Shown here: one piece after another, positions 10,478 through 40,000 of the stretch
How positions within the stretch are numbered: the stretch's first letter is position 1
Layout: each line of letters starts with the position of its first letter
DNA from: Clostridium sp.
GTDB lineage: Bacteria; Bacillota; Clostridia; Clostridiales; Clostridiaceae
Length of the DNA: 45,204 nucleotides
Reading direction: 5' to 3'
Assembly (NCBI GenBank): GCA_031292145.1
Contig: JARLHR010000098.1
Coordinates: 1 to 45,204, forward strand
Made by a program: the position numbers and the translations under genes
Notes under the pieces: model-generated
The model's database searches: none
What the model was told of the DNA's origin: nothing
The model's input: the letters and a program-made list of their open reading frames with translations, nothing else

Positions 10478-10541
10478 TAGGCACGATCAAGAAAATAATA
10501 GGCAAGCATGCTTGTTTGTTATTTTCTTTCATGTGCCTTAT
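10478..10541 (+). repeat. long palindrome in the 5' leader, just before the ribosome site
   Basis: Nested arms AGGCAC / GTGCCT, AAGAAAATAA / TTATTTTCTT and the core CAAGCATGCTTG form one near-continuous hairpin. It ends one base before the ribosome site GGAGGCG at 10542. It could stabilise the mRNA or shield translation. Its AGGCAC/GTGCCT ends recur at other intergenic sites in the window. Confidence 0.6.
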
Positions 10542-10555
10542 GGAGGCGATTTGTT

Positions 10556-17366: not shown

Positions 17367-17472
17367 AATCATCCTCCTCTTTTTAGATAAAATATAAATA
17401 ATAATAGTGTTAAACAAATTAAAAGAAAAATTTAACTTGTACACCATAGTATACAATTAAATAAATCTTATT

Positions 17473-20327: not shown

Positions 20328-20457
20328 GAGCGTGGCGTAGCGAATTTTTTTCATGCACATTAGTGAATGGTGTAGAAAAATACAATTTTTTTAAATTTTA
20401 TCTTTAATGACATGATGTTTTTTGTTAGAATTTAATGTAGGGAGGTGGCAGGCGGTT

Positions 20458-22704
20458 TTGAATATTAAAAGAAAATTTATTACATTTGTTTTATCGTTTG
20501 CAATGTTATTAAGTTTGATTCCAACATTAAGTGTACAAGCAGTAACTACTGATTTTAAAATAATATCAGATACTAAGGTTACTGCAAAACAAGCAGGAGA
20601 TTGGGCTAAATCTAAGGGAGCAACAAAAACTTTCATAAGTTTGGCAGATCTTTATTTTAAGTATGCACCAGATCATGGTAATGTTAATCCAGCTATTGCA
20701 TATGTACAAGCTGCGAAAGAAACTGGATATGGAAATTTTGGAGGAGTATTAGATGATAGTTATCACAATCCATGTGGCTTGAAGACAGCATCAGGTGGTG
20801 GTGATACTGATCCAAATGCTCACCAAAGATTTGATAGTTGGGATGAAGGTGTACAAGCACACTTAGATCATTTGGCTTTATATGCAGGAGCAGATGGATA
20901 TCCAAGAAGTGATACTTATGATCAAAGACAATTTGTAACAATTAAAGGCATTGCAGCTACAGTAAATTCTTTAAGTACTAAATGGGCTCCAAGTGCTACA
21001 TACGGTGAGGAAATAAATCAATTATATGAAAATTTAATGGATTTTGCTGGAGTAGATTATCCTAAAGATGTAAACAATAATACTAATACAAATAACACTC
21101 AATCATCAAATGGAGTTCCGAATCCAGGAAATCCAGAGACGAAACCAAGTGCACCAAGTGTAGCAGACGTTATTCCGGATAGTAAACCTCAAGTTGTAAA
21201 TAATCAACAAGAGGACAAACCTAGTATAACATCTACTATTGGCTGGAAAAATGAAAATGGAACTTGGTATTACTATAAATCTGATAATACAAAGGCAATT
21301 GGTTGGATTAAACCTGATAGTAGCTGGTATTATTTAAAAGATGATGGAAGAATGGCAACAGGTTGGTTAAGTGATAATGGTAAATGGTACTATTTTGATA
21401 ATTCTGGAGCTATGATTAAAGGATGGAAGCTCATAGATGGAGCTTGGTATTTCTTATCTGATTCAGGAGCTATGGCGACTGGAGTTCAATTTGATGGTTT
21501 AGGCCTATATTATTTAAATGATTCAGGAACTATGGTTTCTTATAGTGGTTGGAAGAAAATTAACAATAATTGGTACTTTTTTGATAAAAGTGGAAAAATA
21601 AAAACTGGTTGGCTTAAAGACAGTAATAATTGGTACTATCTTCAAGGTGATGGAAGTATGGTAACTGGTCTTAAAAAGATAGACAATAATAATTATATGT
21701 TAAATGCAGATGGTACTATGGGAACAGGATGGATACAGTTAAATAATTATTGGTATTACTTTAACGCTGATGGAAGTATGGCAACAGGTTGGATATTAGA
21801 TAATGGAAATTATTATTATCTATATGATACTGGAGCTATGGCTAAGGGATGGATTAATGTTAATGGAACATGGTATGACTTAGGGAATGATGGAACTATG
21901 ACAACTGGATGGGTTACATCTAATGGGGATTCATATTATTTGGATACAACTACAGGAAGATTACTTACTAATACTACAATAGATGGATATAATATTGGCT
22001 CAGATGGAAAGAGACAAAATGCATCTAGTACAAACAGTCAAGATAATAGCCCAAGTAACAGTCCTATAAGTAATCCGACAAATAATAATCCTTCAACAGG
22101 TAAGAAGACAATAGTAATAGATCCGGGACATGATTATGGAAGTGATTATGGTGCAGAAAGTACTATTGATGGTGTAACTTATAGCGAAACTGTTTTAAAT
22201 ATGCAGGTTGCAGATAAATTAAAAACAGAACTACAAAATAGAGGCTATAATGTAATAATGACAAGAAATCTTGGTGAACAGCCATCATATGGTTCATTAA
22301 TGGCAAGTCTTACACATAGAGTTAATGTTGCTAACCAATCTAATGCTGACTTCTATATAAGCATACATCATAATTCGGCGGGTGAGACAGCACAAGGGGT
22401 ATTGTCACTTTATAGTCAAGAAGCACAAGATGATAGTTTTGGTGGAAAATTAGATAGTGCTAGAATACAAAAAAGCAAACAAATGGCTAGCCTTATAAAT
22501 AACAATATTGCTAATAAACTTAACTTAAATAATAGAGGCGGGCAAGAGCAAAATTTATTTGTATGCAGAAATACAAACATGCCTGCAGTATTAGTTGAAG
22601 TAGGATTTATAACAAATAAGGAAGAAGCAATAAGATGTTCAGATCCAGCTAGTCAACAAAAAGTAGCCCAAGCAATAGCAGAAGTTATTGCAGGAAATAT
22701 TTAG
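20458..22704 (+). CDS. autolysin: glucosaminidase + choline-binding repeats + N-acetylmuramoyl-L-alanine amidase
   Basis: 748 residues from TTG 20458, nine bases after GGAGGTGG; upstream in-frame codons lack a ribosome site and would spoil the signal peptide (MNIKRKFITFVLSFAMLLS...VQA). Residues ~33-205 are a glucosaminidase-type domain: AYVQAAKETGYGNFGG with the likely catalytic Glu, and NPCGLK. About eleven GW-type repeats follow (residues ~260-520). Residues ~548-748 are Amidase_3: the zinc ligands lie in DPGHD, the SET Glu and SIHHN, and the catalytic Glu in VEVGF. The enzyme would cut both glycan strand and stem-peptide bond of peptidoglycan at choline-bearing wall sites. Its neighbour at 23437 is a close paralogue. 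A 200-base palindromic element follows. Confidence 0.94.
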   Translation: MNIKRKFITFVLSFAMLLSLIPTLSVQAVTTDFKIISDTKVTAKQAGDWAKSKGATKTFISLADLYFKYAPDHGNVNPAIAYVQAAKETGYGNFGGVLDDSYHNPCGLKTASGGGDTDPNAHQRFDSWDEGVQAHLDHLALYAGADGYPRSDTYDQRQFVTIKGIAATVNSLSTKWAPSATYGEEINQLYENLMDFAGVDYPKDVNNNTNTNNTQSSNGVPNPGNPETKPSAPSVADVIPDSKPQVVNNQQEDKPSITSTIGWKNENGTWYYYKSDNTKAIGWIKPDSSWYYLKDDGRMATGWLSDNGKWYYFDNSGAMIKGWKLIDGAWYFLSDSGAMATGVQFDGLGLYYLNDSGTMVSYSGWKKINNNWYFFDKSGKIKTGWLKDSNNWYYLQGDGSMVTGLKKIDNNNYMLNADGTMGTGWIQLNNYWYYFNADGSMATGWILDNGNYYYLYDTGAMAKGWINVNGTWYDLGNDGTMTTGWVTSNGDSYYLDTTTGRLLTNTTIDGYNIGSDGKRQNASSTNSQDNSPSNSPISNPTNNNPSTGKKTIVIDPGHDYGSDYGAESTIDGVTYSETVLNMQVADKLKTELQNRGYNVIMTRNLGEQPSYGSLMASLTHRVNVANQSNADFYISIHHNSAGETAQGVLSLYSQEAQDDSFGGKLDSARIQKSKQMASLINNNIANKLNLNNRGGQEQNLFVCRNTNMPAVLVEVGFITNKEEAIRCSDPASQQKVAQAIAEVIAGNI

Positions 22705-23272: not shown

Positions 23273-23436
23273 AAATATTCGACAATTTTTATTGTGATAT
23301 ATTGGTATATGACATATTGGTACCTAAAGCAAATTATATATTTGTATTATATAGTGGACAAATATCTTTTAGTGAGATGTTTAATTTTGTTATTTTATTT
23401 TATATGCTTAAAACTAAAGATAAGGGGGAAGATATT

Positions 23437-25491
23437 TTGAAGGCTACTAAGAGATTGACCACATTTATATTTGCATTTCTGATGGCTTTAGTATTAATAC
23501 CAATAGGTAATGCAAAAGCAGATGTGACTGATATGAAAATAATATCAGATACAAAAGTAACAGCAAAACAGGCAGGAGAATGGGCGAAATCAAATGGAGC
23601 AACAGATACGTTTGTTGAATTAGCTGATTTATATTGGAAATATGCGCCAACGCATGGAAATGTAAATACGGCTATTGCTTATGTACAAGCTGCTAAAGAA
23701 ACAGGTTATGGTAATTTTGGTGGAGTATTAAATGATAGTTATCATAATCCATGTGGAATGAAGACGAGTGTTGGTGGAGCTGATAATGATCCAAATGCAC
23801 ATCAAAAGTTTAATACATGGGATGAAGGAGTACAAGCTCATTTAGATCATTTAGCATTATATGCAGGAGCTGGCGGGTATCCAAGAAGCAGTACATATGA
23901 TCCAAGGCACTTTGTTACTATAAAAGGAACTGTAGTAACAGTAAATGCATTGGGTGGAAAGTGGGCTCCAAGCATTACATATGGTCAAGAGATTAATAAA
24001 ATGTATAGCGATTTATTATTATCTGCAGGAATTACATCTCAACCACAAACTAGTGATTCACAAGTAACTAGTAATAATGGAAAAACCTCAGACGGAACGA
24101 TTACAGAATTAAACACAGGAACGAATTTAAAATCAAACACAAATCCGAGCACAAGTACAGGAACAATTTCTGGGTCAAGCTCAAGTGGAAGTTCATTAGG
24201 TCCAGTAGGTGTGGAAGCGACTTCGCCAATACAAATGTCAAGCGGTAATAGTGCAAATATCTCATCATCGATTGGTTGGAAGTTAGAAGATGGGAAATGG
24301 TATTACTATAGATCAAATGGAGCTAAGGCAACTGGATGGATTAAGCCAGACAGTAATTGGTACTATTTATACAGTGATGGTAGCATGGCCAAGGGATGGA
24401 TTATTCTTGGAGGAAAGTGGTATTACCTTAAATCTGGTGGAGCAATGCAGTTTGGTTGGTTGAATGATGGAGGCAAATGGTATTACCTTCAAGGAGATGG
24501 AAGCATGACCACTGGTCTTAAGCTCGTGGATGGCAAAAAGTATTTCTTAGATTCAAGTGGAGATATGAGGACAGGATGGGCTTCAATTAGTGGACAATGG
24601 TATTACTTTAATACTGATGGAAATATGTTAACAGGTTGGATTAAACCAAATGGAAGTTGGTATTACTTATATTCAAATGGAATAATGGCAACTGGATGGC
24701 TTAAGCTTAATGAAAATTGGTATTATTTAAGAAGTAGTGGTAACATGGCAACAGGTTGGATAATGGATGGAAAAGATTATTATTATTTAAATCCTAATAC
24801 AGGTATAATGAGTAAGGATGCAACTGTGAATGGATGAAAAATAGGCTCAGATGGAAGACGTGGAAGCAGAATTCCAGGTAGTACTTCAGGAAAAGTAATA
24901 GTTTTAGATCCGGGTCACAATTTTGGTGGTGACGATGGTGCTTATGCAACTAGTAATGGTGTTACATATGTGGAAAGAGATTTAAATATGCAAGTGGCCG
25001 TTAAGTTAAAATCAAAACTTGAAGCTCAAGGATATACAGTAATTTTAACAAGAGATGAAGCGGACAGGGAAAAGGCAGGAGTCACTGAAAGTCTGACTAA
25101 TAGAGTAAATATTGCTAATAATTCCGGGGCTGCCTTATTTGTAAGTTTACATCATAATTCAGCAGATTCAGAAACAGCAACAGGAGTGGGAGTATATTAT
25201 AGTTCAAAACCACAAGATTCTAATTTTGGTGGTAATTATAGTGATTATAGACTTTCACAAAGTATGAATATAGCCTCGGTTATAGCAACATCAATATCAA
25301 ATAGCACTGGTGCAGTAAATAGAGGTGCAAGTGATAGTAATTATTTTGTTTGCAGAAATACAACTATGCCAGCAGTATTAATTGAATTTGGATTTATAAC
25401 AAATCCGAATGAAGCTCAAAAATGTGCAAATTCATCTTATCAAGATTTAGAAGCGACAGCAGCTGCAAATGCAATTGCAATGGCAGTTTAA
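23437..25491 (+). pseudogene. second autolysin, interrupted by an in-frame TGA before the amidase domain
   Basis: The start is TTG 23437 after GGGGGAAG, then a signal peptide (MKATKRLTTFIFAFLMALVL...AKA). A glucosaminidase-type domain (VQAAKETGYGNFGG, NPCGMK), a Ser/Thr linker and about nine GW-type repeats run to codon 466. Codon 467 (24835-24837) is TGA. The same frame then stays open for 217 codons to TAA at 25491. It encodes an Amidase_3 domain with DPGHN, VERD Glu, SLHHN and the catalytic Glu in IEFGF all intact. The aligned site in the paralogue is Tyr (DGYNIGSDG, here NG-stop-KIGSDG). Either a recent nonsense mutation leaves a secreted glucosaminidase with wall-binding repeats, or the TGA is read through. 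I found no ribosome site for a separate amidase. Confidence 0.85.
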
Positions 25492-27401: not shown

Positions 27402-30400
27402 ATGAATAAAATGGGAAAAAAGGTAATGGCATTATTAGTTGTATTGACAAGTATAATATCATTTTTTCCAGCTGAATTTATAGGACAGGCAGTAAATGCA
27501 GCTACAACAACTTCAGATCCAACTGCAATTTATGTGTATAATGCTAATGCTACAACGCCAATAACAGCTACAACAGACACTACAACAAATAAAGCAGTTT
27601 ATTCAAGTCAAATGGCAGAGAATGAAGCAGGAAAATTTGATGTAGTAGTTAATGATGTTAGAACAGATGATAAAACACTTGAAAATGAGGCAAATACTAA
27701 TGTGTTGTCAGGATCAGGAATGGTATCAGGAATTGTTGGTCAACAAGTGAAAATAATGGCTGTTAATGGTATAAATTGTGATACAGATGCTGAAAGAGCT
27801 ACATTGAATACTATGCTAGGTATAAGTATTGGAACAACTCCAGCTACTTCGGGAAGGGTATCGGTAATAGGTGAAACAATAAGTGGATTACCATATGGTG
27901 TTAATAGGATATCATATCAAGTAACAACAACAACAGAATCTATAAATTATACGGCAGCAATAACTAGTGGAACAACAACAACAGCTGCAACTGTAGGGGC
28001 ACCAACTACAAACTCGATAACATATTCCACTAATGATGTAACAATTTACTATGCTTCTAATTATGTTACAAGTAAGATAACTTCCATGCTTTTTAAAGCT
28101 TATATTGGAGGAACAACATATTTTGATGATAATGATAATATAGATGCGAGTAAGTATTCTACTATAATACAAAATAATTCAAAGCCATTTCTATATTCAA
28201 CACAAGCACAACCAGATTCAGATATGCCACTAAAATATACTTTTAAAGTTCCTGATTCAACTGATGTATTGAAATATATTATGACTTTTGATCAAAGTTT
28301 TACTGGTGCCACAATATTTAAGAATGGTATAGAAGCAAATGAAAATTCAGATTTTACTATTACTCAAAATTATGATAGTTATGGTAATGTTAAGTCTTCT
28401 AATTTGAGTGGCAACCTAGGAAAACCTGGAAGTTCTGATTTAATTGTAATTAAGCTCTCATCATCTGCAACTCAGGTTGAAAAAACTTATTCCATAGAAA
28501 TTAGTTACACATATCCAAATGCAACTGATGATTATAGTTTAAAAACCGCTGGAATAACAAAGTATAATTATGATTCTGATAATACTGTAAATGCGTATAT
28601 TGGAAAAAAATTTGATGTTACCACAGATGCAACAAATGGCTTTCAAATTTATACAGGTAATATATATATAGACAAAAAAGCTACTATGATAAGTATAGAT
28701 CCTACTCTGGTAAGAAATGCAAATTCAGATAATGTAGCATTTGTAGTGACGAATAATTATTATGATCCTACTCTTAAAAAGACTATATCAAAGAGCTCTG
28801 AACTTAAGAATGGAAAGCAATTCATTAATTTTATGGCTAGTACAACTAGTAATCAATTACAAGTTGATGTATATTCGGGATCAAATGGAAATCAAACATC
28901 GTCTTCAACATTGTTGGCAAGATATCTTTTAAATGTTACTTTGTTATCATCTGATAATTTTTCTATGGGCATGGCCTTTGGAAATAGCGATGGCAGTTCT
29001 GGTGGAGTTTATTTAACACAACCAGGTGTAAGCCAAAATACCATAAATTTTAGCACTAGTAGGCTTACTTATGATTTATATTCTTCAGACATAGTTAAGG
29101 TACTGTTTACTGGAGTTAGAAGCAATAAAAATGAATATTTAAGGGTTTGGCTTGCAAGTAGCTTAAATGGTAACAATTTTAAGGAAGCACAGGGATCTAT
29201 AGATAATACTAGCAGGAGCACTAGTTTTGATGTAAATGTACAAAGTGATGCAAATCTTGGGGCTAAAGCTAAAAAAATGTTAGTTCAAGCTTATTACGAT
29301 GTAACTACCGGAGGAGCTGTTACTGCAAGTTATCCTGTAGGAGATCAATACGTATTCGATTTGCCTAATAACTACGACTCATCAGATACTTCATCAGATA
29401 CAGGAAATACGTCAGGCAATGCTTTATTAAACAATTTGCAAGTTACGAATGCAACTTTAAAAGATAGTGGTGGAAATACTACATTCTCAAGCAGCGTATA
29501 CAATTATACCACTACTGTTGATAAAAGTAGTACAACTGCAACAATAACTGCAACAACTCAAGATGATAATGTTCAATCAATTGCTGCAACTGTTCAAGAG
29601 ACTGGAACATCTTATGATTTAACTTCAGGTGAAGCAAGTGATATCACTTTAAGTACAACTGGTACAACAACAGTTAAGATAGTTGTTACTGCGCAGGATG
29701 GAACTACTACGAAGGCATATACTGTTGTAATTAGCAATAATACAAAAAGTAGTACTGCTACTTTGAAGAATGTAATTCTTAATGCAGGAGATTATACCTT
29801 TGATCCTACAGCAGACACAACTAAGGTTCATGAAAGTCAAAATGCAACTAGTGTTACTGTAACCCCTGTACCAACAGATGCTAGTTCAACAGTTACTGTA
29901 AATGGTCAAACATATTCTTCAAGTCCAATAACTGTTAGTATTAGAGGATCACAAACAACTGATATAGAAATAGTAGTTACATCACAGGATGGAACAGCTA
30001 GTAAAACTTATACATTAGAAGTTTATAGAACAGATTCTACAGATACTAATACAAGCAACAGTTCAAATAGCTCAACTCAGGATGACCAATATTATGATCA
30101 ATATAATGATTGTTGGGTTGATACTACTAAATATGATGAATGGGGTACTGTGAATGGAAATCCAGTTTATTTTGATAAGCATAATAGGCAAGTTAAAAAT
30201 GCTTGGATATCTACTGGTGGAAAGTATTATTTCTTAAATAATTCAGGCTATAGAGCATCAGGCTGGAAAGTTGATGACGCTGATGGAAAAGCTTATTATT
30301 TAGATCCGACAACCGGAGAAATGAAAACTGGATGGATTAATTTAAGTAATAGCTGGTATTACTTGGGTCTTAATGGTGTAATGCACAAAGGCTGGTTATA

Positions 30401-30512
30401 CTTAAATGGAAAATGGTATTACTTTACTCCAAATGGACAAATGGTAATTAATCAAAGCATGTTTGTAGAGGATAAAGTATATAACTTCGGACAAGATGGA
30501 GCGGTTATATAG
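27402..30512 (+). CDS. very large secreted cadherin-like / choline-binding repeat protein
   Basis: 1036 residues, ATG after AGGAGGGG. The signal peptide (VMALLVVLTSIISFFPAEF...VNAA) ends near residue 34. Residues ~35-660 are Thr/Ser/Asn-rich and probably all-beta, without a family I recognise. Two cadherin-like beta-sandwich domains follow: about 670-775, starting LLNNLQVTNATLKD, and about 780-885, with STVTVNGQTYSSSPITV and TYTLEVYR. About five GW-type repeats close the protein (TGWINLSNSWYYLGLNGVMH). Together these suggest a long surface adhesin or matrix protein anchored to choline. It directly precedes the lic locus but is separated by a palindromic element and a new promoter. Its TAG stop lies inside the TATAGATA terminus of that element. 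Confidence 0.9.
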   Translation: MNKMGKKVMALLVVLTSIISFFPAEFIGQAVNAATTTSDPTAIYVYNANATTPITATTDTTTNKAVYSSQMAENEAGKFDVVVNDVRTDDKTLENEANTNVLSGSGMVSGIVGQQVKIMAVNGINCDTDAERATLNTMLGISIGTTPATSGRVSVIGETISGLPYGVNRISYQVTTTTESINYTAAITSGTTTTAATVGAPTTNSITYSTNDVTIYYASNYVTSKITSMLFKAYIGGTTYFDDNDNIDASKYSTIIQNNSKPFLYSTQAQPDSDMPLKYTFKVPDSTDVLKYIMTFDQSFTGATIFKNGIEANENSDFTITQNYDSYGNVKSSNLSGNLGKPGSSDLIVIKLSSSATQVEKTYSIEISYTYPNATDDYSLKTAGITKYNYDSDNTVNAYIGKKFDVTTDATNGFQIYTGNIYIDKKATMISIDPTLVRNANSDNVAFVVTNNYYDPTLKKTISKSSELKNGKQFINFMASTTSNQLQVDVYSGSNGNQTSSSTLLARYLLNVTLLSSDNFSMGMAFGNSDGSSGGVYLTQPGVSQNTINFSTSRLTYDLYSSDIVKVLFTGVRSNKNEYLRVWLASSLNGNNFKEAQGSIDNTSRSTSFDVNVQSDANLGAKAKKMLVQAYYDVTTGGAVTASYPVGDQYVFDLPNNYDSSDTSSDTGNTSGNALLNNLQVTNATLKDSGGNTTFSSSVYNYTTTVDKSSTTATITATTQDDNVQSIAATVQETGTSYDLTSGEASDITLSTTGTTTVKIVVTAQDGTTTKAYTVVISNNTKSSTATLKNVILNAGDYTFDPTADTTKVHESQNATSVTVTPVPTDASSTVTVNGQTYSSSPITVSIRGSQTTDIEIVVTSQDGTASKTYTLEVYRTDSTDTNTSNSSNSSTQDDQYYDQYNDCWVDTTKYDEWGTVNGNPVYFDKHNRQVKNAWISTGGKYYFLNNSGYRASGWKVDDADGKAYYLDPTTGEMKTGWINLSNSWYYLGLNGVMHKGWLYLNGKWYYFTPNGQMVINQSMFVEDKVYNFGQDGAVI

Positions 30513-30894: not shown

Positions 30895-30923
30895 TTGACA
30901 CAGATAATTTAGAATAATATAAT
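30895..30923 (+). promoter_or_regulatory. consensus sigma-A promoter of the lic locus
   Basis: Perfect TTGACA (30895-30900), a 17-base spacer and a perfect TATAAT (30918-30923). This is the strongest promoter match in the window. It predicts transcription from about 30930, leaving a ~115-base leader before the kinase-fusion gene. Confidence 0.8.
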
Positions 30924-30934
30924 TAATATAGTTC

Positions 30935-30954
30935 ATATTTCGAACATGAAATAT
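30935..30954 (+). promoter_or_regulatory. candidate operator at the lic transcription start
   Basis: ATATTTCGAACATGAAATAT: perfect 7-base inverted arms (ATATTTC / GAAATAT) around GAACAT, just downstream of the predicted start. The first gene of the locus carries its own N-terminal HTH domain, so autoregulation here is plausible. The overlapping GTTCAT resembles the palindrome before the licB-like gene at 37710. Confidence 0.5.
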
Positions 30955-31044: not shown

Positions 31045-32895
31045 ATGTTAGATGATAGAATAAAAATATTAAAAACATTAAATGATAACTTTAATATTAA
31101 TCAAAGGGAACTAGCCAAGAGGACTAATATATCTTTGGGCAAAGTCAATGCTGTTTTAAAAGAATTTACTACGGAAGAGTATATAGACAGAATAACTAAT
31201 AATAGAGGAACTTTATACAAGGTTACTGAAAAAGGAATGAAGTATTTAGAGGAAAATATTGCTTCTGCAAAGAGCACTAGATTGAAGCTTCATGAAGAAG
31301 AAAAGAAAATTGTAAAACAAGCTGTTATACTTGCGGCAGGCAGGACTGAGGAGTTTGGAAAACCAGTGGGGATGCTTGAAATTGAAGATTTTAAGCTAAT
31401 TGATAGAACTCTAAATATTTTAAAAGAAAATGGAATAACCAAAATTGTAATTGTTACAGGGTATGAAAGCCAATATTTTGAAGAATACTTTAAAAATAGT
31501 AAAAACATAACTTTAGTAAAAAGTGATAAGTATAAGTGGACAGGAACTATGCATTCTTTATCTTTAGCCAAAGATTATATTGATGATGACTTCTTGCTTA
31601 TTGAAAATGATTTGATTTTTGAAAAAAGGGCTATCAAGGAACTAGCAGAAAGTGAAAATCGAGATTGTATACTTTTTACTAATGAAAGTGGATCTGGTGA
31701 TGAGGCTTTTGTAGAAATAAGAGATAATCATTTATATAAAATGTCTAAAGATATTCACCAATTTAATAGGATTGATGGAGAAATGATTGGAATTACAAAG
31801 ATTTCTTATAAACTTTATACAATGATGCTTGAAGAATTTAAAGGAAATGTTAATCCTTATTTAAATTATGAATATGTATTATTAGATGTTGCTCGAAATT
31901 ATAATATTGGATTTGTTAAAATAGATGACCTTGCTTGGGGGGATGCAGATGCTCCAAAAGAATATGAAAAAATTAAAAATTATCTTTATCCAACAATAAG
32001 AAGAAGAGAGCTTAGTTATGAAATTAATAATATAAAGATTATAATCCGCGAGTCATTAAAAGTGAAGGATGAAGATATTACAGAAATAGAACCAGCAGGT
32101 GGTATGACAAATAAAAATTATAGAATTTGTGTTAAAGATGAAAAATATATCTTAAGGGTTGCAGGGGTTGGAACTGAACAAATGATTAATAGACATACAG
32201 AAATGTTTAATTCTGCAATCGCATCTGAAAAAGGTTATAATGTAGAAGTACCATACTTTAATCTTGAAACTGGTGTTAAAATATCTAAATTTATAGAAAA
32301 TGCAGAAACTTTAACTCATAGAAGTATTAAAAAAGAAGAGAACTTAAAGCAAGTTACAACTATTTTGAGAAATTTACATGAATGTACTGATTTCCATATG
32401 GATAATGAATTTAATATGTTTAGAGAACTTGAAAAATATGAAAATATTTTAAAGAAAGATGGCGGAAATTTCTTTGAAGATTATGAAATAGTAAGGGAAA
32501 AGGTCATGGCCCTTGAAGAAGAGTTGAAAGTTTGCAACAGGGTGTTTGTACCATCTCATAATGATTTAGTTTCTGAAAATTTTGTTAAGGACACACAAGG
32601 TTGAATTTATTTAATTGATTGGGAATATAGTGGTATTAATGATGATATATGGGATTTAGCAGCCCTTTCTTTAGAAAATGAATTCTCAGAAGATGATATT
32701 GAGTTAATGTTTAGATTATACTTTAATGGAAAAGAAGCTGATAAGGATTCAAGAAGAAGATTGTTAATTCATCAAATATGTCAAGATATGTTGTGGGCTG
32801 TTTGGACGCTAATTAAAGAAGCCGAAGGAGACGATTTTGGTACTTATGGAATAGATAGATACAACAGAGCTAAAGAGTATTTAAACAAACTTTAA
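31045..32895 (+). pseudogene. HTH + nucleotidyltransferase + LicA choline kinase fusion, interrupted by an in-frame TGA
   Basis: The frame has 616 codons, with ATG 31045 after AAGGGGAG. Residues 1-72 are a winged-helix domain (NQRELAKRTNISLGKVNAVL). Residues ~86-320 are a nucleotidyltransferase of the LicC/RmlA fold, but its loop reads LAAGRTEEFGKPVGML instead of G-x-G-T-R. Residues ~325-616 are LicA-type choline kinase: GGMTNKNY, the Brenner motif HNDLVSENF, IDWEYSG with the Mg-binding Asp, and WDLAAL. Codon 520 (32602-32604) is TGA, between the two kinase motifs. The frame stays open and conserved to TAA at 32895. In pneumococcal LicA this site is Arg (recalled QGRLYLIDWEY). Terminated, the kinase would be dead; read through, it would make phosphocholine. 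LicCA fusions are known in Treponema. Confidence 0.88.
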
Positions 32896-32901
32896 AATAA
32901 T

Positions 32902-33030
32902 GTAGATACCCACATTGAAAATCGTACTTATGCGTATAGTCAAGCGAAATTGAATACACATCTGTACCAAAAATATTTCTGATTTCGGTAAGTTAGCTCA
33001 TAAGTCTAGAATATGTGTTGGATATCTATA
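32902..33030. repeat. palindromic element, family 1, deletion derivative
   Basis: The right end is a good terminus: GATTTCGGTAAGTTAGCTCA, TAAGTCTAGAATATGTGTTG, GATATCTATA. The left end is degenerate (TAGATACCCACAT) and the central nested arms are missing. Confidence 0.65.
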
Positions 33031-33099
33031 TAAAAATAAAATTGAAATAATTTCTTTGAATGAGAGGTGATTTCAATTAGCTGTGAGGAGAAGAAAGTT

Positions 33100-33795
33100 A
33101 TGAGAGCAATTTTAATGGCTGCGGGAATGGGGACTAGATTAAGACCATTAACTGAAAATACACCAAAATCTTTAATAGAAGTTAATGGAATGTCTTTGCT
33201 TGAAAGACAAATAATAAATTTAAAAGAAGTTGGAATTGATGAAATTATAGTCTTAACAGGTTATTTACATGAAAAGTTTGATGATATAGTTAAAAAGTAT
33301 AATTTAATCAAGGTCATTAATGATAAATATGATGTATATAATAATATATATACTATGTATCTGGTTAGACAATACCTTAAAGATGCATTTGTTATAGATG
33401 CTGATAATTATATCACAAGAAACTTCTTGCCAAAAACTAAGCCGACAACATCGCTATATTATTCAGCCTGCAAGGATAATATAGTAGGTGAATGGATTTT
33501 GAGATATGATAGTGATGGGAGAATATTTGGAGTTGATATTGGAAAAGATGGTGATGAACCAAATTACATAATGTCCGGAGCTTCTTTTTGGACGGCAAAA
33601 GATGGAGAGCTTATTGCTAAGAAGGTTGAGGAAACAATAGATAAAGGAGATTTTAGAGATATGTATTGGGATAGCATTGCCGTAGATAATCTTAAAGAGA
33701 TGGATGTTTATATTGAGAAGATACAGTCTAATGATATATTTGAGATAGATTCTCTGCAGGATTTAGAATATTTAAAAAGAACATTAAATTTATAA
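33100..33795 (+). CDS. licC: phosphocholine cytidylyltransferase LicC
   Basis: 231 residues; ATG 33100 nine bases after GAGGAG (the frame extends to 33067 without support). It matches the LicC family along its length, pneumococcal LicC being ~229 residues. The nucleotide loop is MAAGMGTRLRPLTENTPKSL with the catalytic Lys. Further family blocks are INDKYDVYNNIYTMYLV, VIDADNYI with metal-binding Asp, and SGASFW...DMYWD...IFEIDSLQDL. It should convert CTP and phosphocholine to CDP-choline and pyrophosphate in the cytoplasm. That is the step after the LicA kinase encoded just upstream. Two palindromic elements flank it, so expression may depend on readthrough from the 30895 promoter or on an unseen one. 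Confidence 0.93.
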   Translation: MRAILMAAGMGTRLRPLTENTPKSLIEVNGMSLLERQIINLKEVGIDEIIVLTGYLHEKFDDIVKKYNLIKVINDKYDVYNNIYTMYLVRQYLKDAFVIDADNYITRNFLPKTKPTTSLYYSACKDNIVGEWILRYDSDGRIFGVDIGKDGDEPNYIMSGASFWTAKDGELIAKKVEETIDKGDFRDMYWDSIAVDNLKEMDVYIEKIQSNDIFEIDSLQDLEYLKRTLNL

Positions 33796-33801
33796 AATAA
33801 C

Positions 33802-34075
33802 TATAGATATCTAATACGAAACTTAGACTTAACCGCAATCAACCGAAATTAGATACATGTTTATTTCGCAAGACTATGAAAATTGCGCTGAAAGCACTAA
33901 GCAAAAGGTTGCACCCACTTACGCTTGTTCCAAATATTCATTTAGACAAGCATAAGTGGAACAACCTTCAGCTAAGTGCTTTTTGCAGCTCATTTTCATA
34001 GTCCTGTGTAACACAAATGTATTTAATTTCGGTAGATTATCGCATAAGTCTAGAATATGTGCTGGATATCTATAT
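33802..34075. repeat. palindromic element, family 1 (complete, both termini)
   Basis: It begins TATAGATATC and ends GATATCTATA. Inside come CGAAATTAGATACATGTTTA / CACAAATGTATTTAATTTCG, GAAAGCACTAAGCAAAAGGT / ACCTTCAGCTAAGTGCTTTT and TACGCTTGTTCC / TTTAGACAAGCATA. It sits between licC and the convergent flavodoxin-fold gene, where it could end transcription in both directions. Confidence 0.8.
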
Positions 34076-34083
34076 AGCAATTT

Positions 34084-34761
34084 TTACTGAATATATCTTT
34101 TTTTATGATGACTAAAATTATAAACAGGGGACGGAATCGCTTTCGTAGCACCTGATGTAAAAACCTGTGGTTTTATTAATTGAGTTTTATTATGTAACGA
34201 TAGTATTTTATAGGATAAGTTAAGAATTTTTTGTGCTATTTGCCTTTTTGTTCTTAAGTTTATGTATTCCCAGTCGCCTTCATAAATGTTTTGCGAAAAA
34301 TGAAATATATTATGTATTCCCCAAAAGTTCAAATTCTTTTTAATTATTCTATTAACATGAAAAAGTCCAGCACCCGAGGCTGTTGAAATTATTAAACCTA
34401 TCTTATTGTTTCCTAAATTATGTTCCTTATTTTTCATATAATAACAGGACAAATTGTCTAAAAGGTTTTTCATTTCACTACTAAGATCGCACGTAAATGT
34501 AGTGCAAGCAATGATGATTAAGTCTGCTTTGTATAATGATTTAGCAATGAATTTAATATTACTTTCATCATATAAGTTGTTGCTAATTCTAGTATTAATG
34601 CTAGAGCAGCGTCTATTATAAGAGTATGATACATTATTAGATGAAAAAACTTCTGTAATATTTAAATTTATATTAGATTTAAGATTATCAAGTAAGAGCT
34701 GAATGCAATTATAATAAGCATTAGCTTTATTCATACTCCCATAAATAATAGTTACATTCAC
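34084..34761 (-). CDS. flavodoxin-fold NAD(P)H-dependent oxidoreductase
   Basis: 225 residues from GTG 34761 (MNVTIIYGSMNKANAYY), nine bases after AAAGG. An ATG at 34770 is the alternative; it overlaps the TGA of the upstream regulator as ATGA but has no spaced ribosome site. The FMN-phosphate loop IIYGSMNKANAY and the strand ADLIIIACTTFTCDLSSEMKNLLDNLS mark the FMN-reductase / flavodoxin_2 family. The usual Cys-rich region is reduced to RRCSSINTR. The ~40-residue C-terminus is unusual and basic. It is the second gene after a TetR-family regulator in the same direction and probably its target. Substrate unknown. Confidence 0.82.
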   Translation of the reverse strand: MNVTIIYGSMNKANAYYNCIQLLLDNLKSNINLNITEVFSSNNVSYSYNRRCSSINTRISNNLYDESNIKFIAKSLYKADLIIIACTTFTCDLSSEMKNLLDNLSCYYMKNKEHNLGNNKIGLIISTASGAGLFHVNRIIKKNLNFWGIHNIFHFSQNIYEGDWEYINLRTKRQIAQKILNLSYKILSLHNKTQLIKPQVFTSGATKAIPSPVYNFSHHKKRYIQ

Positions 34762-34766
34762 AATTA

Positions 34767-35375
34767 TCATCCTTTCAACGTATAGGCATGTTTAAATTCA
34801 TTAATGTGGTTTTCTAAAGATGTCAATTCTTTATTAGTTAAATTATCATCCTTATAAAATAGGAGAAAAGCTGGAGAATAAAATTGAAGAGCTAATATAT
34901 AAGGATCCTTTTTTACAAAAATATCTGCATTCATAAGTAATTCGAAAATTTTAGAATGAAACTCTAATATATCATCAACAAATATTTTATTATATAAAGC
35001 TGCTATTTTAGAATTAGTAAATTGCTCTATTGTAAGTAATTTTCTAAATTTAATTACATATTCATCTTCTAAATAAAACTTAAAAATATAGATACTTTTC
35101 TTAAAAAAATATTCATTAGAAAACCACTTAAGTTTATTAACTATAATTTCATTAATATCATAATTTGTTATTATATGATCAAAAAATTTAGTTATGTAAT
35201 TTGAATACTGATTTATTATGGTGTCTAAAATGTCTTGTTTATTCTTAAAGTGATTATAAAGGGAACTTGCCTTGATTCCAACTGCTTTAGCAATGTCTCT
35301 AACAGATATTGCATCAAATCCTCTTTTTGAAAAAAGGTTTAGGGATTCATAGATAATTTTATCTCGCGTATTCAT
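34767..35375 (-). CDS. TetR-family transcriptional regulator
   Basis: 202 residues, ATG 35375 after AAGGAG. The N-terminal TetR HTH is clear: RDKIIYESLNLFSKRGFDAISVRDIAKAVGIKASSLYNHFKNKQDILD. The C-terminal ligand domain is divergent, as usual. Its TGA stop is the only TGA that ends an otherwise complete gene in the window. The flavodoxin-fold gene starts within ten bases, so the pair is translationally coupled. A perfect 20-base palindrome 180 bases upstream is a likely binding site. The pair interrupts the lic locus and may be unrelated to it. Confidence 0.92.
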   Translation of the reverse strand: MNTRDKIIYESLNLFSKRGFDAISVRDIAKAVGIKASSLYNHFKNKQDILDTIINQYSNYITKFFDHIITNYDINEIIVNKLKWFSNEYFFKKSIYIFKFYLEDEYVIKFRKLLTIEQFTNSKIAALYNKIFVDDILEFHSKIFELLMNADIFVKKDPYILALQFYSPAFLLFYKDDNLTNKELTSLENHINEFKHAYTLKG

Positions 35376-35555
35376 AAAATCTCCTTACAAAAAAATTAAA
35401 CTTTACAATTAATAATTATTGAAAAGTTAAACACAATAAATATAGAAGGAAAGTCTTAGGGCTTTCCGCAAATTAATCCAAACACAAATACGAAAAATAC
35501 GCCATAGAGTTTCAAAAAATAGAAAATAATATCACAATAAAATAATAATATCTTC

Positions 35556-35575
35556 AAACTAACAATTGTTAGTTT
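35556..35575. promoter_or_regulatory. perfect 20-base palindrome, probable TetR operator
   Basis: AAACTAACAATTGTTAGTTT reads the same on both strands. On the minus strand its TTGTTA can serve as a -35 box, with TTTTAT 17 bases on, so binding would block the regulator's own promoter. Confidence 0.65.
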
Positions 35576-35642
35576 AATTATACACTATAAAAAGGAAGAA
35601 GTCCATTAAATTTCAATAAAATATACATAATTGGTACTTAAA

Positions 35643-35671
35643 TTGACAATAAATTTTGTTAAATGTACAAT
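35643..35671 (+). promoter_or_regulatory. sigma-A promoter of the flippase gene
   Basis: Perfect TTGACA (35643-35648), a 17-base spacer and TACAAT (35666-35671). The predicted start is about 35678, so the 36-base repeats lie in the leader. Confidence 0.65.
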
Positions 35672-35696
35672 TGAAAAAGTGAAAATTATACACATA

Positions 35697-35815
35697 TAAA
35701 AAAAGCAGCTATGCTGCAATTAAGATCATAAATAAAAAAAGCAGCTATGCTGCAATTAAAATCATAAATAAAAAAAGCAGCTATGCTGCAATACGGAACT
35801 TTTCTGCAATTAAGA
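35697..35815. repeat. 36-base tandem repeat (three units) with GCAGC...GCTGC hairpins
   Basis: GCAGCTATGCTGC occurs at 35705, 35741 and 35777, exactly 36 bases apart, each preceded by a run of seven A and followed by AATTAAGATCATAAAT-like DNA. Read on the minus strand each unit is GCAGCATAGCTGC + TTTTTTT, an intrinsic-terminator shape. The tail (ACGGAACTTTTCTGCA) matches, inverted, the unit at 43131-43190. Confidence 0.75.
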
Positions 35816-35892
35816 ATTTAAATCAGTTTACAGTTAACAGACCATAAATAATAAATTATTAATTAAAATATATGTATATGGAGGTTCAATTA

Positions 35893-37356
35893 ATGGCTAA
35901 ATCAATTTCTAAAAATGCAATCTTTAAAGCAATGCTTAATTTATTTAATATAATTTTGCCTATTTTAGTAATACCTTTAGTTACTAGATCAGTTGGAAAA
36001 GAACTATATGGTTATATGGGATATGGAGACTCTTTAAATCAATATTTTCTGATATTTGCCAGCTTTGGAATTTATCAATATGGTTTAAGAGAAATAAGTA
36101 AAGTTCGTGATAATAAAGTTAAACTTAGACAAACTTTTACTAGTCTATTTGTTTTTGGATGTTTAACAAATATTGTAACGTCAGCAGCATATATGGGATT
36201 TGTAGGATTTTATTATAAAAATGAACCATATTTTTATACATGTGTAATCATGGGATTTAATTTAGTATTTAACCTTTTTTATGTGGAATGGATTAATGAG
36301 GCGTTGGAAAATTATGATTTTATTGCTATTAAAACAATGATAGTCAGAATTGTATATTCAGCACTAATATTACTATTTGTCAGAAATCAAGGAGATTATT
36401 TATTTTATTTATACATACTTGTAGGGTTTAATTTTATAAATAACATAATAAGTTTTGTTTATGTAAAGAGAAGATTAAGTTTTGATTTTTCTAATTTAGA
36501 ATTTATGAAACATATAAAACCTATGTTTTATGTTGTAATTCTTTCTAATACAGGAGTTTTATATACTCAGCTTGATAAAATCATGTTAAAGGATAGTATT
36601 GGAGGGACCACGGCTGTTGGATATTATTATATGGCGCAAAGAATAATGCTTATAATAAACACATTACTTTTAACTGTTATTCAAGTGACTATGCCAAGGC
36701 TTTCTAATTACCTGGGAAATAAGTCGAATGGTGAATATTTAATATTATTAAAGAAGGTAATTAAGATATATTTCTTGATTTTGTTTCCAGCATCCATTGG
36801 TCTGTTATGTCTTTCAAAGGAAGCGATATTTATTTTTGGTGGATCAGAGTTTTTAGCAGCAGTTCCTGTAATGATAGTATTTTCAATATATATGCTAAGT
36901 ATTGGAGTTGAAGGGGTAATAGCTAATCAAATGATATATTTGCATAGAAAAGAAAAAGAAGATGCCATGCTAGTATTAGCTGGAGGAGTACTTAACTTAA
37001 TATTTAAATTTGCATTAATTTATGCAGGAATTTTTAACATGGTAAGTGCTATAATAACTACTTTGATCGCAAACTTAATTGTAATAGTACTTGAGTATTG
37101 GTTAGTTAAGAAAATAATAAAATTAGACATACATTTATTTGCTTATGAAAATATAAAATACTTCTTTTATTCACTTATATTTATTCCTATAACATTTGGG
37201 ATAAAATTATTTATACATAATATACTAATAGCATGTGTGTTAGAAGGGGCAGCATGTGGATTAGTATATATGGGTATTCTTGTAATTACTAAAGATGCAG
37301 TATTCTTTGAATTGTTCAACAAAATACTTGTGAAGTTTAAGATTAGAAAAATATAA
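35893..37356 (+). CDS. teichoic-acid / polysaccharide flippase, TacF-like
   Basis: 487 residues from ATG 35893, eight bases after GGAGG; an upstream in-frame ATG (35872) has no ribosome site. It is a polytopic membrane protein of the polysaccharide-export (MOP) family with about 14 hydrophobic segments. The N-terminal block GKELYGYMGYGDSLNQYFLIFASFGIYQYGLREISKVRD closely resembles the pneumococcal TacF/Wzx type. TacF exports choline-bearing teichoic acid precursors across the membrane and in pneumococcus sets the choline requirement. Placed between licC and two licB-like genes, this protein is best read as the flippase for choline-decorated chains, though a general O-unit flippase cannot be excluded. 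It has its own promoter and terminator. Confidence 0.88.
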   Translation: MAKSISKNAIFKAMLNLFNIILPILVIPLVTRSVGKELYGYMGYGDSLNQYFLIFASFGIYQYGLREISKVRDNKVKLRQTFTSLFVFGCLTNIVTSAAYMGFVGFYYKNEPYFYTCVIMGFNLVFNLFYVEWINEALENYDFIAIKTMIVRIVYSALILLFVRNQGDYLFYLYILVGFNFINNIISFVYVKRRLSFDFSNLEFMKHIKPMFYVVILSNTGVLYTQLDKIMLKDSIGGTTAVGYYYMAQRIMLIINTLLLTVIQVTMPRLSNYLGNKSNGEYLILLKKVIKIYFLILFPASIGLLCLSKEAIFIFGGSEFLAAVPVMIVFSIYMLSIGVEGVIANQMIYLHRKEKEDAMLVLAGGVLNLIFKFALIYAGIFNMVSAIITTLIANLIVIVLEYWLVKKIIKLDIHLFAYENIKYFFYSLIFIPITFGIKLFIHNILIACVLEGAACGLVYMGILVITKDAVFFELFNKILVKFKIRKI

Positions 37357-37383
37357 GGTGTATTCTTTTAGGGTGCCAGATAA

Positions 37384-37433
37384 TAGGCGATTGCTAAATA
37401 AGTTTTACTTACTTTAAGCAACGCCTTTTTTAT
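37384..37433 (+). terminator. intrinsic terminator of the flippase gene
   Basis: AGGCGATTGCT / AGCAACGCCT stem extended by AATAAGT / ACTTACTT, then TTTTTTATT. Confidence 0.8.
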
Positions 37434-37487
37434 TATTTTTTATCTGAACATATTGCTTTGAACATTGAACAATGATAATATAAAGTT

Positions 37488-37534
37488 GTTCATAAAATGA
37501 ACCTAGGATGTGGACAAAATATGATTGATATAAT
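37488..37534 (+). promoter_or_regulatory. palindrome and extended -10 promoter before the first licB-like gene
   Basis: GTTCATAAAATGAAC (37488-37502) has perfect 6-base arms. TGATATAAT (37526-37534) is an extended -10 box without a good -35. The palindrome would sit just upstream of or on the -35 region. The remainder of the 37357-37709 gap shows nothing further. Confidence 0.5.
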
Positions 37535-37709
37535 GTATAGTTAATCTTTTAAAGTACAAAATATGTATGAATTAAATTAACAAGATTAGGTATTAATTTG
37601 CAGATGATGAAATTTTAAGAGCTAGGGAAGATAAAATTTAACTGGAAGATAAATTTGACGTTGAGTATTAAGAATAGAAATAAGTAATTAAATTCAAGGG
37701 GGATTTTTA

Positions 37710-38684
37710 ATGGAAAGCAATAAAAACGATTATAAGATAGGTGTGTTCACTGGAATAGGCTCGGCAGTAACTTGGGGAATAGACACAGTTTTGATGGCAA
37801 TAGTACTTGCTATGAGTCCATTTTCATCAGAAGGTGCAATAATTTTAGCTCCAATTATAACAGCATGTTTTCATGATGCATTTTCAGCAGTATGGACATT
37901 CATATATCTTGTATTAAAAAAACAATTAAAACCATTAGTTAAAGCTATGAAAACTAAGAGTGGGTTAGTGGTTGCATTAGCAGCAATTATGGGTGGTCCA
38001 GTTGGGATGACAGGATATGTAATGGCAATTCAATATATTGGACCATCTTATACAGCTATAATCTCATCATTATATCCAGCGTTTGGAGCAGTTTTAGCAT
38101 ACTTAATATTAAAGGAAAAAATGAATAAAAAAGGCTGGGCTGGATTGTTTGTTGCAATTTTAGGGATATTATTAATTGGATATTCACCAAATGAATCTGG
38201 GATTAGTATTGTAGGATTTATATGGGCTATAGTGTGTGTAATAGGATGGGGAAGTGAATCTGTTATATGTGCAATTGGAATGAAAGCTGATGAAGTATCT
38301 GCAGAGTCTGCACTTCAAATAAGACAATTAACATCAGGTATTGCTTATTCTGCTTTAATAGTTCCTATGATAGGTGGAATTGGAATGAGTTTTGAAGTCT
38401 TAAGAACAAGTTCAGTTTGGTGGCTTATAGCAGTTGCCTTATCAGGAACGGCATCATATTTATTCTATTATCAATCAATTGATAAAATTGGAGCAACAAA
38501 AGCTATGGGGTTAAACTCAACAAATACTGTTTTTGCAATAATATTCGATGTATTAATAAATGGAACTCAATTAAGTTTAAAAACAATTCTATGCAGCATA
38601 ATGGTTATGGGCGGAGTTTATTTTATGGCAAAAGTCTCAGAAGAAGAAAGTGAAGAAACTACGGAGCTTTTAGAAGCTGAATAA
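37710..38684 (+). CDS. licB: LicB-like choline transporter (EamA/DMT family), copy 1
   Basis: 324 residues, ATG after GGGGG. About ten membrane segments in two EamA repeats. LicB-type blocks are present: GGPVGMTGYVMAIQYIGPSYTAIISSLYPA, WGSESVICAIGMK, ESALQIRQLTS, SYLFYYQSIDKIGATKAMGLN and IMVMGGVYFMAK. These line up with the pneumococcal LicB layout, to which a charged C-terminal tail is added here. LicB imports choline by proton or ion coupling, supplying the kinase encoded upstream. It is followed by its own terminator and by a close paralogue. Choline is the inferred substrate; related DMT carriers can move other small amines. Confidence 0.88.
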   Translation: MESNKNDYKIGVFTGIGSAVTWGIDTVLMAIVLAMSPFSSEGAIILAPIITACFHDAFSAVWTFIYLVLKKQLKPLVKAMKTKSGLVVALAAIMGGPVGMTGYVMAIQYIGPSYTAIISSLYPAFGAVLAYLILKEKMNKKGWAGLFVAILGILLIGYSPNESGISIVGFIWAIVCVIGWGSESVICAIGMKADEVSAESALQIRQLTSGIAYSALIVPMIGGIGMSFEVLRTSSVWWLIAVALSGTASYLFYYQSIDKIGATKAMGLNSTNTVFAIIFDVLINGTQLSLKTILCSIMVMGGVYFMAKVSEEESEETTELLEAE

Positions 38685-38705
38685 TGAAAGGCATATTCTA
38701 AAGAT

Positions 38706-38755
38706 AAAGGTGTTAAGCAATTTATTTTAAAAATAAGTTGTTTAATACCTTTTTA
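38706..38755 (+). terminator. intrinsic terminator between the two licB-like genes
   Basis: AAAGGTGTTAAGCAATTTATT pairs with AATAAGTTGTTTAATACCTT, then TTTTT. Confidence 0.8.
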
Positions 38756-38961
38756 TTTATTATTCTTATAATATATAATTTGCTTATAAATGATATATTA
38801 ATAAGGCAAGAACTTGAATTAAAGCAGACAGTTTTACGTTTTTTTATTATTAGAGTAGTAATTTAAGCAATTCATTTAAAATTCTAACGCTAGAAATGTA
38901 GACTTGATTAAGTGAAAAGTAAAACACTCTATAAGAAATTAATTTTAAAGGAGGATTAATT

Positions 38962-39930
38962 GTGAAAAATAAAAATAATTATAAAGCTGGAGTTTTTAGT
39001 GGGATAACTTCAGCAGCCACTTGGGGATTGGATACAGTATTGATAGCAATAGTCCTTGGTATGAGCCCATTTTTACCAGAGGGAGCAGTATTTTTAGCAC
39101 CATTTATAACTGCATTTTTTCATGATACTTTCTCAGCAATATGGACATTTGTATATCTTGCAAGTAAAAGGCAATTAGGAAGTTTATTTAAAGCCATGAA
39201 AACTAAAAGTGCATTATTTGTTGTACTTGCAGCACTTATGGGGGGACCTATTGGGATGACTGGCTATTTACTTGCAGTTAAACTTATTGGACCATCTTAT
39301 ACTGCAATAATCTCATCATTATATCCAGCAGTTGGAGCAATTTTAGCATATATTATATTGAAAGAAAAAATAAATAAGAAAGCATGGATTGGTTTAATAT
39401 TTGCAATTATAGGTGTATCAGTAATTGGTTATTCAGCAGGTGAAAATGGGATTAGTATAACTGGTTTCTTATGTGCATTATTATGTGTATTTGGATGGGG
39501 AAGCGAATGCGTTATATGTGCATATGGAATGAAGGGTGACGAAGTATCATCAGAATTAGCGCTTCAAATAAGGCAAATGACATCGGCTATTGTTTATGGA
39601 GTTCTTATAGTTCCTATTGTTGGTGGGATAGGACTTGGTTTTGAAATCCTAAGGACAAGTGTAATTTGGTGGGTTGGAGCTACTGCATTATCAGGAACAG
39701 TATCCTACTTATTCTATTACAACGCAATTTATAAAATTGGTGCAACTAGAGCTATGGGGTTAAATATTACATATGTTGTTTGGTCAATTGTATTTGATGT
39801 ATTAATCAATGGTCGTAAAATAGATTTAATGACAATTATATGCAGTTTAATGGTTATAGGTGGAGTTTACTTTGTGGCAAAAGCACCAGAGGTAGAAGAA
39901 GAGAGTTCAAAACTTTTAGAAGCAAAGTAA
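38962..39930 (+). CDS. licB: LicB-like choline transporter (EamA/DMT family), copy 2
   Basis: 322 residues; the GTG start at 38962 is seven bases after AAAGGAGG. It aligns over its whole length with the preceding gene (same GGPIGMTGY, WGSECVICAYGMKGDE, ALQIRQMTS, SYLFYYNAIYKIGATRAMGLN blocks) and ends in the same charged tail, SSKLLEA. This copy keeps NITYVVWSIVFDVL, the stretch usual in LicB proteins, where copy 1 has NSTNTVFAIIFDVL. The pair is a tandem duplication, each with its own terminator, suggesting different regulation or affinity. The role is inferred to be choline (or related amine) uptake. Confidence 0.88.
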   Translation: MKNKNNYKAGVFSGITSAATWGLDTVLIAIVLGMSPFLPEGAVFLAPFITAFFHDTFSAIWTFVYLASKRQLGSLFKAMKTKSALFVVLAALMGGPIGMTGYLLAVKLIGPSYTAIISSLYPAVGAILAYIILKEKINKKAWIGLIFAIIGVSVIGYSAGENGISITGFLCALLCVFGWGSECVICAYGMKGDEVSSELALQIRQMTSAIVYGVLIVPIVGGIGLGFEILRTSVIWWVGATALSGTVSYLFYYNAIYKIGATRAMGLNITYVVWSIVFDVLINGRKIDLMTIICSLMVIGGVYFVAKAPEVEEESSKLLEAK

Positions 39931-39946
39931 TTCTAGATTATTGATG

Positions 39947-39999: not shown

Positions 40000-40000
40000 A

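Follow-up and report, generated by a model that had tools for sequence, protein, structure and literature searches.

A choline kinase fused to a winged helix-turn-helix and a PntC-like domain as a candidate regulator of choline and phosphonate headgroup supply in Clostridium sp.

The window analyzed here, a stretch of 45,204 nucleotides from Clostridium sp. (GenBank assembly GCA_031292145.1, 6.34 Mb in 282 contigs; contig JARLHR010000098.1, forward strand), carries a lic-type choline locus next to genes for surface proteins. Its first lic gene, licCA, encodes a winged helix-turn-helix (wHTH), a PntC-like pseudo-nucleotidyltransferase and a LicA-type choline kinase in one chain, and is examined below as a candidate regulator with its own operator. 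Gene identities were assigned from Pfam and NCBIfam profiles with family cut-offs and from bit scores against PDB structure sequences, and the domain limits of licCA were taken from a structure model of the Clostridium beijerinckii protein. A first-pass annotation, made from the sequence alone, had recognized a kinase/nucleotidyltransferase fusion, LicC, a TacF-like flippase and two LicB-like carriers, and profile and structure matches place all of them where it had put them. The features of the locus are as follows.

30895..30923, + strand: licCA promoter, TTGACA-17-TATAAT, 12/12 match
30931..30945, + strand: predicted operator 1, GTTCATATTTCGAAC, at the expected licCA transcription start
31045..32604, + strand: licCA; wHTH (~1-75), PntC-like pseudo-nucleotidyltransferase (~90-320) and LicA-type choline kinase (from ~325), ended by TGA
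32602..32604, + strand: in-frame TGA ahead of the kinase IDWE motif
32605..32892, + strand: remainder of the kinase frame, 96 codons without a further stop
33067..33795, + strand: licC, cytidine triphosphate (CTP):phosphocholine cytidylyltransferase with the canonical signature; likely start near 33100
34084..34770, - strand: flavodoxin/flavin mononucleotide (FMN) reductase-like protein, a recurring passenger
34767..35375, - strand: TetR-family regulator, a recurring passenger in part of the clade
35872..37356, + strand: TacF-like teichoic acid flippase
37446..37463, + strand: upstream half-site element of the licB promoter, GAACATATTGCTTTGAAC
37488..37502, + strand: predicted operator 2, GTTCATAAAATGAAC, within the licB promoter
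37710..38684, + strand: LicB-like choline importer (EamA)
38962..39930, + strand: second LicB-like EamA protein

Domains of LicCA and the in-frame stop

The N-terminus of LicCA matches the wHTH profile HTH_24 (36.6 bits, cut-off 21.9), with the secondary structure H-H-H-E-E-H in the structure model. The middle of the protein is an NTP_transf_3 domain and the C-terminal part matches Choline_kinase (50.1 bits, cut-off 29). The kinase domain scores 97.7 bits against PDB 4r77 and is of the kinase fold, with a GGMTNKNY loop and HND...N and IDWE motifs. An NCBIfam scan returned no match above cut-off for LicCA. The HTH positions Q20, S30, G32 and N35 are invariant in an alignment of 24 LicCA members. 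HTH-nucleotidyltransferase proteins of 323-334 amino acids that have no kinase domain were also observed (loci L131, L140 and L142).

The middle domain is nearer to PntC (106.7 bits) than to LicC (38 bits) and retains the cytidylyltransferase fold. The consensus GxG(T/S)Rx4-8PK, needed for activity, is present in none of the 61 LicCA proteins that could be parsed from 73 named loci, and the loop is likewise missing from three others read by eye (L117, L125 and L140). LicC in the same 73 loci has the canonical signature in 52 of 59 cases, the remaining seven having HK instead of PK. Compared with PntC (6PD1/6PD2; PMC6697681), LicCA is without the GxG(T/S)R...PK loop, and equivalents of Arg15 and Lys25 are therefore missing. 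The LicCA pocket residues E187 and E276 correspond to PntC Glu104 and Glu196.

The licCA frame of this genome stops at the TGA after 519 codons, so that IDWE, a motif that hardly varies across the family, lies in the part lost behind the stop. Among 118 genomes, 21 others have a copy with at least 71% identity, all with open frames of 617-654 amino acids; the nearest (genome G038) is 94% identical. Relative to the latter, 43.5 nonsynonymous and 152.5 synonymous changes were counted before the TGA (ratio 0.041), and 5 and 31 after it (ratio 0.017), which points to selection on the tail that either persists or ended very recently. The TGA could be a draft error, a recent mutation or a site of read-through. 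As judged from the sequence, the regulator half of LicCA would be intact in this genome and the kinase truncated. A side question, compatible with each reading discussed below, is whether the stop renders choline decoration defective here, the kinase being lost and the regulator kept. The position of the TGA before IDWE, the intact copies of relatives and the low scores of the other Choline_kinase matches in the genome (seven, all at most 41.6 bits; truncated licCA is the best at 77.1 bits) speak for such a defect. The strong constraint behind the TGA, which implies that the stop is very recent, erroneous or read through, and an in-frame TGA in a second gene of the window, an autolysin, speak against it, and we regard the defect as a serious possibility that falls somewhat short of even.

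A palindromic site at licCA, licB and a phosphonate operon

Between the window and 13 close relatives, the regions upstream of licCA show little good alignment apart from the promoter and a palindrome, GTTC-N7-GAAC, directly behind the -10 element, whose arms are identical in 14/14 regions. This promoter is the sole 12/12 match among 57 promoter-like sites in 30500-40000, a number of sites not above that in shuffles (mean 66.8). The exact palindrome occurs twice in the window, at the licCA and licB promoters, versus 0.19 expected in shuffles. Among the named loci, an exact site lies no more than 300 nt upstream in 43 of the 60 that have an HTH, and a site with one mismatch in 10; of those without an HTH, 1/13 has an exact site (L133) and 1/13 a near site (L144). 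Mononucleotide shuffles gave an exact site in 0.09 of 60 loci. In an unbiased ranking of 4+4 palindromes, TTCA-N5-TGAA (49 loci) and GTTC-N7-GAAC (43 loci) came out on top, the next reaching 16; related loci are not independent, and these site counts overstate the number of events. Carriers of the site include Clostridium, Romboutsia, Neobacillus, Abiotrophia, Lacrimispora and Fusicatenibacter loci and Streptococcus anginosus.

A palindrome at the expected 5' end of the transcript, with a possible stem of 4-5 bp, might instead be an RNA hairpin that controls stability or translation. Several observations make this very improbable. Position 11 is a C opposite A in 9 of 47 exact-pattern sites, the 10 one-mismatch loci break a pair with no change in the opposite arm, the distance to the start codon ranges from ~25 to ~200 nt, and the palindrome follows the HTH. 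An Rfam scan of the window gave no matches. The hairpin was rejected on the uncompensated mismatches and the Rfam result.

A second alternative is an ordinary lic pathway, in which LicCA acts simply as an enzyme, either bifunctional or limited to the kinase reaction, its HTH is vestigial, and another regulator, such as the neighboring TetR protein, acts on the palindrome. The kinase and LicC are clearly of lic type, a TetR gene does lie within the locus, and seven of the 60 HTH loci are without a site. However, a TetR ortholog is present in only 7 of the 44 exact-site loci (6/32 among loci >20 kb), on which ground TetR was rejected as the binder of the palindrome. The site tracks the HTH, four HTH positions are invariant, and HTH-nucleotidyltransferase proteins occur that have no kinase; we therefore consider an ordinary pathway unlikely. 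The first-pass annotation had described the TetR/flavodoxin pair as an unrelated-looking split of the locus. The pair recurs at the same place in 6 of the 73 loci (L079, L080, L081, L083, L089 and L093) and is thus not a chance intruder.

In this genome GTTCANNNNNYGAAC is found at six places: the licCA and licB promoters, the promoter of an operon on another contig (C198), and three positions inside open frames. The C198 operon encodes phosphoenolpyruvate mutase (408.5 bits, cut-off 319.55), phosphonopyruvate decarboxylase (514.7 bits, cut-off 312.5) and 2-aminoethylphosphonate (AEP) transaminase (391.2 bits, cut-off 360.8), with TIGR02320, TIGR03297 and TIGR03301 above cut-off. The AEP-biosynthesis set is completed by a PntC with 40% identity to the LicCA domain and the canonical signature, a call made from this identity and signature in place of a curated model. 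An exact site lies ahead of pntC in 21 of 22 pntC loci from 21 genomes, this one included. The sole exception, L163, is a diverged second copy, and the other pntC of that genome does carry the site.

All 52 sites in six relatives were placed: 31 lie before target genes, 20 inside frames and 1 is left unassigned. The targets are licCA, licB or a 365-366-amino-acid protein with distant likeness to it (29-30% by tblastn), pntC, an S-adenosylmethionine (SAM) methyltransferase, UgpB- or PhnD-related solute-binding proteins, and ATP-binding cassette (ABC) permeases. Proteins of 361-366 amino acids take the place of licB behind the operator in L188, L217, L081 and L089. UgpB-type transporters are known for glycerophosphodiesters, from which a supply of choline would follow. 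The PhnD-related protein matches PF12974 (126.6 bits). The SAM methyltransferase (185-188 amino acids) has the operator in 6/6 relatives (L180, L181, L182, L193, L199 and L212); it has no NCBIfam match above cut-off and is weakly similar to phosphoethanolamine methyltransferases among others, and its substrate could be AEP or phosphoethanolamine. C. cadaveris (L106) has sites ahead of a gene for AEP transaminase (467.1 bits against a cut-off of 360.8) and ahead of a LicC-like gene, and in Fonticella (L140) the HTH-nucleotidyltransferase and the choline kinase are separate genes, each with a site.

Target promoters of the close clade (licB, pntC and others; e.g., window 37446-37502) carry a composite element, TGAACnTaTTGtnnTGAACanTGAAnnaTGnTAatATaanntTGTTCAnaAAaTGAAC, at fixed spacing. 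The upstream pair of GAAC half-sites was found at 52/52 listed close-clade target loci versus 0/48 licCA sites. Within this genome, pntC and licB are the only places with an exact upstream element; matches with one mismatch were checked and discarded as noise.

Proposed regulation by LicCA

We conclude that LicCA is probably both a choline kinase and a transcription regulator of choline and phosphonate headgroup supply, comparable with NadR. In the NadR of enterobacteria, an HTH is joined to a nicotinamide mononucleotide (NMN) adenylyltransferase and a ribosylnicotinamide kinase. LicCA resembles it in the order of its parts (DNA-binding domain, nucleotidyltransferase fold, kinase), and NadR likewise regulates its own pathway. 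Two marks of such a trigger enzyme are found in LicCA, a DNA-binding domain within an enzyme and operator-like sites at its own and its pathway's promoters, the latter recognized from sequence only. Unlike in NadR, the pathway concerns choline and phosphonate in place of nicotinamide adenine dinucleotide (NAD), the domains themselves are not known to be related, and the nucleotidyltransferase is without its catalytic loop.

From the domains, the lost loop and the positions and conservation of the operators, we infer a binder, a ligand, a sign of control and a choline/AEP switch. The wHTH of LicCA is predicted to bind GTTCA-N5-(T/C)GAAC at the transcription start of licCA itself, at the licB promoter and at the promoter of the operon for cytidine monophosphate (CMP)-AEP; it is the candidate binder since it is the DNA-binding domain seen in carriers and the site goes with it. 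The middle domain has lost the pyrophosphate-binding loop and the catalytic lysine, and would therefore probably bind an activated headgroup without making it, and signal to the HTH. Cytidine diphosphate (CDP)-choline is the likeliest signal, and the PntC-like pocket makes CMP-AEP a second candidate. The position of the licCA site, across the expected transcription start, speaks for repression of this gene. Repression would hold while activated headgroup is plentiful and be released when choline is scarce, giving more choline uptake and AEP as a substitute; derepression at choline shortage is the economical reading, because the targets serve import, activation and the supply of a different headgroup. 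At the other promoters the upstream half-sites could mediate activation instead. LicC, TacF, LicD and the choline-binding proteins would then act as in pneumococcus.

A number of observations weigh against this proposal. The kinase of the window is truncated by the TGA. Genome-wide, the palindrome is not enriched here (6 and 5 versus 15 and 21 for a reversed-pattern control), and in five of the six relatives the control count equals or exceeds that of the palindrome; the signal is one of position and gene context, not of genome-wide abundance. In seven of the 60 HTH loci even a site with one mismatch is lacking, some LicCA proteins (e.g., L110 and L144) have no HTH, and L133 has the site and no HTH, although the other LicCA of the same organism (L122) has one. 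Among the targets, the 365-amino-acid EamA-like protein of two relatives (scanned in L188) has no Pfam or NCBIfam match, the two scanned UgpB-related proteins score 82-89 bits, under the cut-off of 411, and the window's assembly contains no ortholog of the SAM methyltransferase (best match 29%). The upstream GAAC pair is missing at three further targets, two in L106 and one in L140, and is therefore taken as a feature of the close clade. With regard to the middle domain, a catalytic loop of non-standard type is possible, and the match of E187 and E276 to PntC could point to AEP as the ligand type. On the other hand, stand-alone PntC-like matches occur in only 21 of the 118 genomes, each with a close LicCA (at least 71%), and many LicCA carriers thus seem to lack AEP activation.

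The domain combination was compared with other described systems. Treponema denticola LicCA is a fusion of a cytidylyltransferase and a choline kinase; it is reportedly treated by Kent in 2004 with respect to phosphatidylcholine synthesis. The pneumococcal lic/tac system has a related importer, kinase, cytidylyltransferase, flippase and LicD, and here, too, choline-binding repeats are found on autolysins. It differs in that the kinase of the window is fused to an HTH and a loop-less PntC-like domain, licD lies elsewhere, and the AEP operon shares the operator. In two oral bacteria, A. rimae and O. uli, lic genes have been noted at no great distance from the pnt genes (PMC6697681); the available part of that report names no shared regulator. 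Searches of the literature (open-licence PMC papers) found no choline-responsive regulator of the LicCA kind. What appears to be new is the combination of a wHTH, a PntC-like nucleotidyltransferase and a choline kinase in one chain, a candidate regulator with its own predicted operator. The first-pass annotation recognized the fusion and passed over the TGA that truncates the kinase, the regulator-like look of the protein, its own operator and the linked phosphonate pathway.

A broader reading may be offered tentatively, as one that we hold possible and less than probable: LicCA would represent a new class of regulator in which a dead cytidylyltransferase fused to a choline kinase senses CMP-activated headgroups and runs a choline/phosphonate switch. 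When choline is absent, choline sources would be imported and AEP placed on teichoic acid, perhaps N-methylated to a choline mimic by the co-regulated methyltransferase of relatives, which would determine how many of the dozens of choline-binding proteins are retained at the wall. In bacteria with choline decoration, autolysis and the retention of such proteins depend on it. As a candidate choline-responsive regulator, LicCA comes with a defined site of 15 bp that is seen in Clostridium and as far afield as Neobacillus, Abiotrophia and Streptococcus anginosus. The shared site suggests joint control of phosphocholine and phosphonate decoration, and the cell probably tunes what it puts on its wall to the choline available.

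The predicted choline wall, surface proteins and neighboring genes

The other lic genes of the window are well supported: LicC scores 213.6 bits against PDB 1jyk, the TacF-like protein 209 bits against PDB 9xzn ('Teichoic acid subunit flippase') and LicB 126 bits against PDB 7b0k. The genome has another TacF-like protein (58%). A 2026 report on TacF (PMC13385700) places Bacillus and Clostridium sequences in a cluster of their own, about which it states that 'no functional information is available'. The first-pass annotation had noted the absence of licD from the window and proposed a search of the rest of the genome, which yields one LicD (contig C194; 158.8 bits, cut-off 22.6), flanked by two glycosyltransferase family 2 genes. 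By sequence, the pneumococcal-type set (licB, licA, licC, licD and tacF) is complete, with the kinase truncated in this genome.

Ten open reading frames to the left of the lic genes score above cut-off for the choline-binding repeats PF01473/PF19127. Their number agrees with the first-pass annotation, which had called the repeats GW repeats; GW modules are a term for something different from choline-binding repeats. The two autolysins that it named among them (20422-22704 and 23302-24837) were likewise recovered.

40..579, + strand: choline-binding repeat protein; frame open to the left window end
896..2344, + strand: choline-binding repeats and Cadherin-like
2840..5062, + strand: choline-binding repeats and three Cadherin-like stretches
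10508..12631, + strand: choline-binding repeat protein
12845..13915, + strand: choline-binding repeats, Flg_new and Big_2
13984..15048, + strand: choline-binding repeats, Flg_new and Big_2
15309..17456, - strand: choline-binding repeat protein
20422..22704, + strand: autolysin with glucosaminidase, choline-binding repeats and amidase (Amidase_3)
23302..24837, + strand: autolysin paralogue with glucosaminidase and choline-binding repeats, ended by TGA
24970..25491, + strand: amidase part of the autolysin-paralogue frame, after TGA 24835-24837
27402..30512, + strand: large Cadherin-like surface protein with C-terminal choline-binding repeats

Genome-wide, at least 155 choline-binding repeat matches were found in at least about 80 open frames (distinct contig/frame pairs), a lower bound since 150 of 331 candidates were scored and the frames tallied by hand. 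Neither of the two exact palindromes in the window lies ahead of a choline-binding protein gene. Choline-bearing teichoic acid and 66 choline-binding proteins are on record for C. saccharoperbutylacetonicum (PMC3593318, citing Podvin 1988 and Garcia 1988). This near relative thus shows the choline wall and protein family predicted here, and no regulator or phosphonate link is described for it (PMC3593318). The earlier proposal that phosphorylcholine on teichoic acids serves as the docking ligand of these proteins fits the gene set and the number of repeat frames; it is probably right, and mostly known biology. That a pneumococcus-like choline wall with choline-binding proteins is all there is to the locus would agree with the finding of all lic parts, licD included, and with this published precedent. 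It would account neither for the HTH nor for the conserved absence of the catalytic loop, nor for the operator at the AEP operon, and is accordingly judged improbable.

Several smaller observations were made in the window. The TGA at 24835-24837 splits the second autolysin before its amidase domain, with the frame open beyond, and is the second in-frame TGA in 45 kb. A PD-(D/E)XK nuclease family transposase (PF12784) lies amid the surface-protein genes (25610-26641). Three identical GCAGCATAGCTGC hairpins, each followed by a T tail, stand in tandem on the minus strand ahead of the TetR gene (35705-35789). Genes for an AraC regulator and for glycoside hydrolase family 3 (GH3) and GH43 xylosidase-type enzymes (40040-44960) form a separate sugar-use cluster.

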